Source of the DNA: Candidatus Lachnoclostridium stercorigallinarum
Lineage (GTDB): Bacteria; Bacillota; Clostridia; Lachnospirales; Lachnospiraceae
Direction of reading: 5' to 3'
Length of the DNA: 55,458 nucleotides
Assembly (NCBI GenBank): GCA_019116745.1
Contig: DXBC01000166.1
Coordinates: 1 to 55,458 of the forward strand
Every line of letters begins with the position of its first letter. Position 1 is the first letter of the stretch. The notes below the pieces were generated by a model. It was not told where the DNA came from, made no database searches, and saw only the letters and a program-made list of their open reading frames with translations. The translations under genes and the position numbers were made by a program. Positions 8,450 through 42,903 of the stretch are shown one piece after another.

Positions 8450-9649
8450 ATGAGCAAGTGTATTGCCTGCGGCCAAAAATTGCCGGAAGAGCCGCTGATG
8501 ACTCTGGATAACATGCCGGCGTCCGCCCAGAATATTCCGGACAGGGATGAGGTGAAGGAGGACCACGGGATCACATTGAATCTCTGCCAGTGCCCGGACT
8601 GCGGCCTGGTACAGTTTGACTGTGAGCCGGTGGACTATTACCGGGACGTGATCCGGGCCGGCGGATTCTCCACCACCATGGTGAATCTTCGCAGAAGGCA
8701 GTACCGCCATCTCATAGAGACCTATCATCTGAAAGGAAAGAAATTTCTGGAGGCAGGCTGCGGCCGTGGAGAGTTTCTCTCGGTGCTGCGGGAATTCCCG
8801 GTGGAGGTCCACGGCATAGAGCACCGGAAGGATCTGGTGGAGACGGCTGTAAAGGACGGCCTGGACGTGAAGGAGGGATTTACGGAGACAGAAGACACCC
8901 TTATACCGGGCGGCCCCTACGACGTATTCCTCTCCTTTAATTTCCTGGAACATCAGCCGGAGCCGGGAGTGATGCTGCGGTGCATCCGAAACAACCTGAC
9001 GGCCGGAGGAATGGGCCTGATCACCGTGCCCAGCCTGGAGTATATTCTTCAGTACGACGGCTACTATGAGCTGATTCGGGACCACATCGCCTACTACACC
9101 TTTGAGACTCTTCGGAATCTTCTGGAATCCTGCGGATTTGAGGTGCTGGAGGAGGAGATGATAAACCGGGACACCCTGTCGGTGATCGTGAGAAAGACGG
9201 AGGACGGGGCGCCGGGAGCGGAGAGCGGAACCGGGATGCCGGGAGCAGAGAGCGGAACGGCCCCTGCGAAGGTGGACGTCTCCGGTCTGACTGCCAGCCG
9301 CCGCTATATCGACGACGAGGTGAACCGGCTGGTGGACCGCCTTCACGGGGAAGGAAAGGCCCTGGCTATCTGGGGGGCCAGCCACCAGGGATTTACTCTG
9401 GCGGCCACCACCCGGCTGGGGGACAAGGTGAGCTACATCATAGATTCCGCCCCCTTTAAGCAGGGAAGATTTGCCCCTACCTCCCATCTGCCCATTGTGG
9501 CGCCGGATCACTTCTTCCAGGAACCGGTGGGCGCCATTCTCATTGTGGCCCCCGGCTATACGGAGGAGATTGCCGGGATTATCCGGGAAAAATTTGGAAG
9601 CTCTGTGGAAATTCTGGCATTGAAGACGGATCACCTGGAGACACTTTAA
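8450..9649 (+). CDS. class I SAM methyltransferase, sugar C-methyltransferase-like, N-terminal zinc-binding motif
   Basis: CIACGQKLPEEPLMTLDNMPASAQN...CQCPDCGLVQ; FLEAGCGRGEFL SAM motif; IWGASHQGFTLAA C-terminal domain. Confidence 0.82.
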   Translation: MSKCIACGQKLPEEPLMTLDNMPASAQNIPDRDEVKEDHGITLNLCQCPDCGLVQFDCEPVDYYRDVIRAGGFSTTMVNLRRRQYRHLIETYHLKGKKFLEAGCGRGEFLSVLREFPVEVHGIEHRKDLVETAVKDGLDVKEGFTETEDTLIPGGPYDVFLSFNFLEHQPEPGVMLRCIRNNLTAGGMGLITVPSLEYILQYDGYYELIRDHIAYYTFETLRNLLESCGFEVLEEEMINRDTLSVIVRKTEDGAPGAESGTGMPGAESGTAPAKVDVSGLTASRRYIDDEVNRLVDRLHGEGKALAIWGASHQGFTLAATTRLGDKVSYIIDSAPFKQGRFAPTSHLPIVAPDHFFQEPVGAILIVAPGYTEEIAGIIREKFGSSVEILALKTDHLETL

Positions 9650-40527: not shown

Positions 40528-40550
40528 GATGTAATTATTGACATTACATC
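40528..40550. promoter_or_regulatory. 23-nt dyad operator overlapping the -35 box of the rrf2-family gene
   Basis: GATGTAATTATTGACATTACATC; TTGACA then 17 nt then TATAAT. Confidence 0.75.
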
Positions 40551-41075: not shown

Positions 41076-41121
41076 CGGGCGCAGGCTTCTGGAAGAGACC
41101 AGAGCCTGCGCCCTGTTTTTT
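41076..41121 (+). terminator. intrinsic terminator of the rrf2-family gene
   Basis: gggcgcaggcttctgg aagaga ccagagcctgcgccctgtttttt. Confidence 0.88.
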
Positions 41122-41212
41122 ACTCTGAAACAATACCTTCCGGGGCGGCCAAAAAAGCGCAGACTGCCCCCTATGAAGGCTTCAAAACGTTTTATGATCT
41201 CGGCTGAAAGGC

Positions 41213-42448
41213 TTATGCGGCAACTACAGAAACTTCACAGCCAAGTGCTTTTAACTTTTTAAGGTACGCATTAATCTTGCGTTCCCTATTGAACTGATTG
41301 TAATAATCCGCTCCCAGATCATTGAAAACGACTCCATCCTTCAGAATGTGATAGATGGCAACCAGCATGGAATGGGCCACAGCGACATAAGCCCGTTTCT
41401 TTCCCCGATGGGCGCTGATCCTTGCAAACTGCGCAGAAAAGTAACTGGTCTTATTCTTCACCGCTGCATGGGCACAAACAACCAGTGTGTCCCGCAGCAG
41501 TGCATTTCCCTTCGTGGTCCTTCCAGACTTTCGCTTATGCGCACTTTCATTACTCCCAGGACACAGACCCGCCCATGAAGACAGGTGGGCATCGGTGGGG
41601 AAACGTTCCATGTCAGTTCCGATAACCGAGATGATCGCCTGTGCACCGGTGTTCCCAATACCTGGGATGTCCTGTATCACTTCAGCGGCTCTTTTCTCTT
41701 CGGGCTTCATGAAATTGTCAATGTCATCATCCAGCTCTCGGATATGGGCGTTCAGTTCATCCAGATGGTTCAGGAGGATACGCATCATCTTCTTTTGAAG
41801 GTCAGACATTACCCCATTAAGATCATCAATGATCTGTTCCTTTGTGGCCTTCAGATTGTGTGCGATGACTTTCTGCTGATAAAGAATGTCATACTCAGCA
41901 GAATCAATCTTTTTGCCTGACAGAATATGCTCTAAGATGTTCCGGGCACTCTTGCCATTGATATCCGTGATCGTTCCGGAAAGTTTAATATTGGCTCCTT
42001 CCAGCATCTTCTGAAGCCGGTTGAGCTCCCGGTTGCGTTCCCCAACGAGACTTTTGCGATAACGGACGAGTTCCCGCAGTTCCCTCTGATCCCTGTTCGG
42101 AATGTAACTTGCGGTAAGCAGTCCGTGCTGCAGAAGGTCCGCAATCCATTCCGCGTCTTTTACATCCGTCTTGCGTCCCGGAACGGCTTTCATGTGCCGT
42201 GCATTAACGACGATCACGTCCAGTTCGCAAACTTCAAGGATGTTGTACAAAGGCTTCCAATAAGATGACGTACTCTCCATGGCGATCATTTCACAGCCGC
42301 CCTCTTTGAGCCAGTCAGCCATTTCCAGAAGCTCTCTGGTTGTCGCGCCAAAGTCACGTATTTCCTGCCTGTTGCCTTGTTTAAAGCAGGCTACGATTAA
42401 CTTTTTATGCACATCAATACCACAACACTTGTCGTAAACTCGATCCAT
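41213..42448 (-). CDS. IS110 family transposase (DEDD/RuvC-like N-terminus, Transposase_20 C-terminus)
   Basis: MDRVYDKCCGIDVHKKLIVACFKQG; RAAEVIQDIPGIGNTGAQAIISVIGTDMERFPTDAHLSSWAGLCPGSNESAHKRKSGRTTKGNALLR; ggaggtg SD upstream of ATG 42448. Confidence 0.95.
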   Translation of the reverse strand: MDRVYDKCCGIDVHKKLIVACFKQGNRQEIRDFGATTRELLEMADWLKEGGCEMIAMESTSSYWKPLYNILEVCELDVIVVNARHMKAVPGRKTDVKDAEWIADLLQHGLLTASYIPNRDQRELRELVRYRKSLVGERNRELNRLQKMLEGANIKLSGTITDINGKSARNILEHILSGKKIDSAEYDILYQQKVIAHNLKATKEQIIDDLNGVMSDLQKKMMRILLNHLDELNAHIRELDDDIDNFMKPEEKRAAEVIQDIPGIGNTGAQAIISVIGTDMERFPTDAHLSSWAGLCPGSNESAHKRKSGRTTKGNALLRDTLVVCAHAAVKNKTSYFSAQFARISAHRGKKRAYVAVAHSMLVAIYHILKDGVVFNDLGADYYNQFNRERKINAYLKKLKALGCEVSVVAA

Positions 42449-42459
42449 AAATGGCACCT

Positions 42460-42660
42460 CCGAAGATAAGTTTACGGCAAGGCTTCCTGTCTTTTGTTAT
42501 TTTACTCTGCGTCCTGATTTGCCGTATACGGCGGGACAGATGGTGGTGCAAATGAGGAAGCCACAAGTCAGTTTACTCTGCGGGCTAAATGCGCCAAATA
42601 AAAACCGACCTTTGCCGATAAGCTTATTATACATCAGAGCTTACGACATGTAACTACTAC
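42460..42660 (-). ncRNA. putative IS110 bridge-RNA coding region
   Basis: non-coding end upstream of and co-directional with the transposase; contains two copies of CAGAGTAA (window strand ttactctg at 42502-42509 and 42573-42580) that match the element boundary sequence. Confidence 0.5.
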
Positions 42661-42880
42661 CAGCCTGCCGTCTTCAATGTTTCATTTATGGTGGTGCCGG
42701 GCATTGAGCGGCATGGGGGGGTTACTCTGAAAGGCCGGCAGGCCGGATTGCGAATGCAGGTCGGATCGCATGAGTGCGCAGCACGGAGCGGTCCGAGGGC
42801 TTTCATGGTTCGTGGTGCCCGCGGTATCGCGAATCGGATAGAGGCAGGAACTCCGGCAGGAAGAAAAAATAAAAAATCAA

Positions 42881-42903
42881 GTTGTAACTATTGACATTAC
42901 AAC
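42881..42903. promoter_or_regulatory. 23-nt dyad operator overlapping the -35 box of the ywnB-like gene
   Basis: GTTGTAACTATTGACATTACAAC; TTGACA then 17 nt then TATATT; same layout as 40528-40550. Confidence 0.75.

Follow-up and report, generated by a model that had tools for sequence, protein, structure and literature searches.

The window analysed here is a 55,458-nt contig of Candidatus Lachnoclostridium stercorigallinarum (DXBC01000166.1), and it carries at positions 41120–42721 an insertion sequence (IS) of the IS110 group in which the target guide and the donor guide of a putative bridge RNA are the same sequence. Comparison with relatives and among host genomes shows covariation of the guides with target and donor, the structure of the RNA, the identity of the two guides, the position of the insertion at a repeat end, and the agreement of miniature-element sites with resident guides in three genomes. 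Read together, and resting on such comparison, these suggest with a probability of roughly 0.7 that the bridge RNA directs insertion to the ends of related elements and that miniature elements are mobilised by it in trans.

The IS110 element and its bridge RNA

The features of the element and of its target are as follows.
41120–42721, minus strand: IS110 element, 1,602 bp including one copy of the 2-nt core (TT, 41120–41121 on the plus strand), delimited by an 11-bp direct repeat and by relatives with common ends and differing flanks.
41122–41132, minus strand: right end on the donor side, reading TTTCAGAGT ahead of the core on the minus strand; relatives have the form GTTTCANAGTAA at the same position.
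41213–42457, minus strand: IS110 recombinase, 414 aa, with PF01548, PF02371, NF033542 and IS621 matches.
42465–42625, minus strand: putative bridge RNA region, exact ends approximate.
42481–42488, minus strand: predicted 3' arm of the central stem (helix 3), AGGAAGCC.
42502–42509, minus strand: predicted donor guide (loop 2), CAGAGTAA.
42555–42562, minus strand: predicted 5' arm of the central stem, GGCTTCCT; seven of the eight pairs of helix 3 show changes on both sides.
42573–42580, minus strand: predicted target guide (loop 1), CAGAGTAA.
42626–42654, minus strand: promoter-like GTTACA-17-TATAAT before the RNA, found by a pattern scan and as a pattern not above chance.
42680–42721, minus strand: left end, motif GGCACCACCATAAATGAAAC, conserved in relatives, with a 19-nt similarity to the repeat at 42801–42819.
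42722–42829, minus strand: dispersed Clostridiales-1-like repeat, 95% identical to the repeat and supported by aligned copies; its right end TTTCAGAGTAA (42722–42732) is the target, and this copy has an altered left end.

The recombinase carries the domains DEDD_Tnp_IS110 (PF01548, E = 2e-34) and Transposase_20 (PF02371, E = 9e-21), both above curated cut-offs, scores 282 bits against NF033542 (cut-off 140), and aligns with IS621 (8wt6, E = 4.6e-17) and with ISCro4; read by eye, the DEDD residues and the C-terminal serine region are kept when it is aligned with IS621. The window's genome, 81% complete, has no other DEDD_Tnp_IS110 match. Searches of plasmid and phage collections returned distant IS110 relatives, and none of the matches listed is closer than the loci found in genomes. 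The non-coding stretches, about 264 nt upstream of the gene against about 85 nt downstream, have the layout of the IS110 group.

The 8-mer TTACTCTG occurs six times in the window, against 0.85 expected. Four of these copies lie on the plus strand within 1.6 kb, at 41120, 42502, 42573 and 42722, just where a sequence-only reading of the window had placed them; the remaining two, at 9393 and 15679, coincide with no copy of the repeats that were searched for and are taken as chance occurrences. The same reading correctly described an extension of the outer pair, which is an 11-bp direct repeat (TTACTCTGAAA) with copies 1,602 bp apart, and a longer match of the 42502 copy to the flank, which extends to TTTTACTCTG. 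It had further proposed a bridge RNA upstream of the transposase, in which the two internal 8-mers serve as one target and one donor guide, and both proposals are sustained by guide covariation and compensatory changes in the relatives. In an alignment of 35 upstream regions, the predicted consensus consists of an outer stem, a small hairpin, a central stem and a distal hairpin, with 98.3% of the cells paired and 10 pairs changed on both sides, values that none of 500 shuffles reached, many of the changes being common to whole sequence groups and so representing fewer events than cells. The window sequence alone folds with z = −3.07. An Rfam scan matched no bridge-RNA family and gave just a sub-threshold Clostridiales-1 match.

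The assignment of the guides comes from the DNA that varies with them. Loop 1, which follows the small hairpin, is identical to the left target flank at 123 of 158 positions where permutation predicts 62 (z = 10.3, 27 distinct pairs), and positions −1 to −4 agree in 25–26 of the 27 pairs. Loop 2, which follows the distal hairpin, agrees with the right end in all 26 cases, and all four bases occur at the variable position. These two pairings rank first among 4,786 combinations of RNA and DNA columns, with the flank and guide alignment of four loci (L025, L028, L048 and L060) set by hand or by simple patterns. Since family covariation assigns the two loops in this way, 42573–42580 is the predicted target guide and 42502–42509 the predicted donor guide, and the greater length over which the 42502 copy matches the flank is no reason, on this comparison, to call that copy the target guide. 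In the predicted consensus structure each guide occupies the 3' side of its loop, and a covariation scan for complementary right-side guides gave nothing above noise. Taken as a whole, the comparison strongly supports a bridge RNA.

A 10-mer, GCACCACCAT, is shared by the 5' side of the donor loop (42540–42549) and the left end (42688–42697), and similar motifs are present in the left ends of miniature elements. It was considered as a guide and rejected, as its left-end and RNA copies, read by eye, vary independently in diverged members.

Equal guides and insertion at the end of a repeat

In L023, a relative 99% identical to the window element, and in that element itself, one sequence, CAGAGTAA, serves as target guide and as donor guide. 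A donor-like target guide (CANAGTAA) is present in the window element and in six of the 35 other relatives, or seven of 36 in all; the other donor-like guides are CACAGT in L068, CATAGT in L073, L053 and L085, and TATAGT in L065. Most relatives have target guides unrelated to the donor guide, e.g., TTTTCTAAA, so equality of the guides is unusual among them, a feature that the sequence-only reading overlooked along with the dispersed-repeat end as target. It had also named absence of the 8-mer from the ends and loops of other copies as a ground for refutation; that would mislead, since the target guides of most relatives differ and conservation lies in the agreement of guide with site. On the protein tree, the donor-like guides need six changes, at least four of them forced by well-supported branches, and two very long branches (L071, L074) leave its details uncertain.

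A left end AAACC..CATGCC..GGCACCACCATAAATGAAAC and a right end GTTTCANAGTAA, in differing flanks, are common to six copies in Lachnospiraceae 28-4 and to copies elsewhere, and in a copy from a congener the match to the window element starts exactly at 41120. In most copies the sequence common to target and donor is AA. The core is thus probably the 2-nt AA (TT on the plus strand) and not the whole 8-mer, and the earlier suggestion that the outer 8-mers are the junction cores does not stand: apart from the core, the 42722 copy is target sequence, contributed by the repeat's end, and the 41120 copy belongs to the right end of the element.

The repeat that serves as target scores 29.5 bits against Rfam RF01699, under the 48-bit gathering cut-off, which long copies in the same genome pass. 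Matches number 31 in the window's genome (G000), 14 in the congener G001 and, in a diverged form, 22 in G003. Copies begin with AAACCTCCGTGCCCGCTAACGCGGACACCACGAACCATGAAAG and finish with GGCTTTCACAGTAA, and many lie beside terminator T-runs; the window copy is without the usual left end. The end profiles of the IS match the G000 repeat at its exact ends, where shuffles scored as well in 5 of 1000 cases on the left and 1 of 1000 on the right, the scores being weak with composition correction and the profiles rerun without it. At one G003 locus (L226) a right end joins a left end directly (TTTCACAGTAAACGGACATGACC).

In the congener G001 both IS and repeat are absent at the insertion locus, where the rrf2 terminator runs directly into TTTTTTTGCGCGATACGCCCGGC and then the next gene; the congener G008 likewise has neither between the terminator and the next gene. 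The empty site predicted by the sequence-only reading agrees with the anatomy of the element and with other loci, and repeat copies in the same genome stop at the same point beside terminator T-runs; no site was found that has the repeat and lacks the IS. The right flank of the insertion is formed by the following feature.
41077–41119, plus strand: rrf2 terminator hairpin and T-run, with an inverted repeat (41077–41087/41103–41113), conserved in G001.

The IS and the repeat are located between rrf2 and an NAD(P)-binding gene, upstream of the second promoter. The promoter regions of these two genes have ATTGACATTACA in common (40537–40548 and 42890–42901), inside longer similar stretches, and this sequence may serve as a common operator for the Rrf2-type regulator. 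In addition, GCGCGATACGCCCGGC, the usual target of the Clostridiales-1-like repeat, is a small repeat of its own after terminators (L165 in G001; L002, L003, L005 and other loci in G000). The repeats L008–L018 of G000 occur in a short and a long form, together with mosaics that have only the first 44 or 88 nt in common.

Miniature elements in three other host genomes

Units of about 110 nt with ends similar to those of the IS adjoin L068, L023 and L085, the last of these carried by Selenomonas bovis DSM 23594, and the three host genomes contain at least 62, 44 and 64 matches to them, respectively. The units often stand head to tail, sharing AA, and in the genome G403 successive matches overlap by 2 nt. 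Dispersed, non-tandem units have the left flanks CACAGT in the L068 host (n = 23), CAGAGT in the L023 host (n = 22) and CATAG(C/T) in the L085 host (n = 22). The mean identity of these flanks to the resident target guide is 3.6–4.0 of 6 positions, against 1.5–1.7 at a control position, and base −4 follows the guide of each genome (p = 9.5e-8 with tandem-like flanks strictly removed; p = 9e-13 with a looser filter), the preference being weakest in G403 (C in 9 and A in 8 of 23). In relatives of G403 the empty site retains the host gene up to GTGAAGT, and AGT is therefore part of the target, not of the element. The IS end profiles match the G403 miniature element at its exact ends, with shuffles as good in 2 of 1000 cases on the left and 0 of 1000 on the right.

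These observations may be joined in one mechanism. Loop 1 of the upstream bridge RNA would name the target and loop 2 the element's own right end; because both guides read the same sequence (CAGAGTAA), insertion would take place at sequences resembling the right end, and so at the termini of related elements. The recombinase–RNA pair would insert at CAGAGTAAA sites, and the window element would be such a case, its insertion point coinciding with the right end of a small repeat whose ends are IS110-like. As donor, this pair should take whatever DNA has ends that fit. Non-autonomous elements of about 110 nt could therefore be carried in trans to sites that match the guide, the ends of one another among them, and insertion there would give head-to-tail arrays with a common AA core. 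We infer in this way that the RNA is produced, that recombination is active, that trans-mobilisation occurs and that arrays form by the guide route.

Several observations weigh against this account. In G405 (Selenomonas bovis; L270–L289, L360–L379), most sites have C at base −1, at which the guide has U; a U–G pair with the bottom strand would allow this. The left ends of the miniature elements are only modestly similar to those of the IS, with no left-end profile match in some families; L053 and L065, out of the six further donor-like elements, are without an adjoining miniature element; and the comparison covers one IS110 per host examined. In the window's own genome, most repeats occupy GCGC|AA sites, many copies sitting in GTATCGCGC|AA. 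As this sequence is not named by the guide of the window IS, these repeats would have been placed by another, unseen element, and no convincing IS110 with a guide ending GC-AA was found among 397 genomes of the family.

The window may instead hold an ordinary IS110 element with a bridge RNA whose guide equality and insertion at a repeat end are coincidental, like IS621 in REP (repetitive extragenic palindromic) sequences, the miniature elements being unrelated repeats moved otherwise. IS110 insertion into repeats is known (PMC11208160), and the repeats of the window's genome do not use the guide sequence of the window element as target, but donor-like guides recur on the tree and the sites of miniature elements follow the resident guide in three genomes, which makes this explanation unlikely. 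It is still more improbable that another site-specific recombinase, one requiring identity of donor end and target, moves the miniature elements, with the IS110 merely landing on the same sequences. With equal guides, the site data cannot separate guide matching from donor–target identity, and the target matches are imperfect; against this, the miniature elements have the core and the end architecture of the IS, the IS adjoins them in several hosts, and the data indicate no other enzyme. That the 8-mers are chance or assembly artefacts with no guide RNA, for which only their shortness speaks, can be dismissed, being contradicted by covariation and compensatory changes in 35 relatives.

Relation to known systems and meaning

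The IS110-group bridge-RNA recombinases typified by IS621 combine a DEDD and serine recombinase with an upstream RNA in which loop 1 specifies the target and loop 2 the donor (Durrant et al., 2024, PMC11208160; PMC11208158). The window element resembles them in its DEDD and serine recombinase, upstream RNA, order of loops from target to donor, short core and insertion beside repeats. Unlike IS621, its target and donor guides are equal, its probable core is AA rather than CT, its right-side guides were not found in the covariation scan, and what it targets is the terminus of an element whose ends are IS110-like. Its bottom-strand guide match lies on the 3' side of the predicted loop, whereas that of IS621 is on the 5' side (PMC11208160), and in this respect it resembles the order in IS1111 seekRNAs (Siddiquee et al., 2024, PMC11187229). 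A further likeness lies in the subterminal inverted sequences, which are short (TGAAAC/GTTTCA), but IS1111 elements have the RNA downstream of the gene and inverted sequences of 11–13 bp, whereas the window element has the RNA upstream and inverted sequences of about 6–8 nt that are unevenly placed, and it does not fall into the IS1111 group.

The miniature elements resemble the miniature inverted-repeat transposable elements (MITEs) of DDE transposons, such as MITEPye1 (PMC11578231), in being tiny, gene-less and present in many copies, with ends resembling those of the autonomous element. They differ in that their site is apparently specified by the guide RNA of the autonomous element, that they show no duplication beyond the core, and that they form head-to-tail arrays sharing 2 nt. 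The window repeat has the same 3' half as Clostridiales-1 RNA (RF01699; Weinberg et al., 2010, PMC2864571), but its IS110-like ends set it apart from that family in other genomes. RF01699 is present in 56 of 100 genomes of the family, often in at least 20 copies, and its loci in other Lachnospiraceae genomes (L134–L158) have inverted ends (TGATGNTGGGGTCA..TGACCCTGGCATCA) and apparent short target duplications. With such ends, duplications and many copies, the Clostridiales-1 ‘RNA’ appears to behave like a miniature transposon. The idea that all Clostridiales-1 RNAs have IS110 ends was rejected, as other genomes show the inverted ends and short duplications.

The literature searched, outside which most subscription papers lie, describes no IS110-derived miniature elements, equal target and donor guides, or such arrays. 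Bridge RNAs are under development as programmable recombinases, and the guide-directed account, if true, would offer ready-made donors of about 110 bp, a record of tolerated guide–target mismatches, and natural cases of identical target and donor guides. We hold it somewhat more probable than an even chance that this is a natural RNA-guided system of trans-mobilisation, in which IS110 elements repeatedly evolved a target guide equal to the donor guide, one bridge RNA recognises and spreads swarms of units of about 110 nt, which build tandem arrays by inserting into one another's ends, and a change of guide re-addresses the swarm. If true, it would explain the spread and array formation of some bacterial repeat families.
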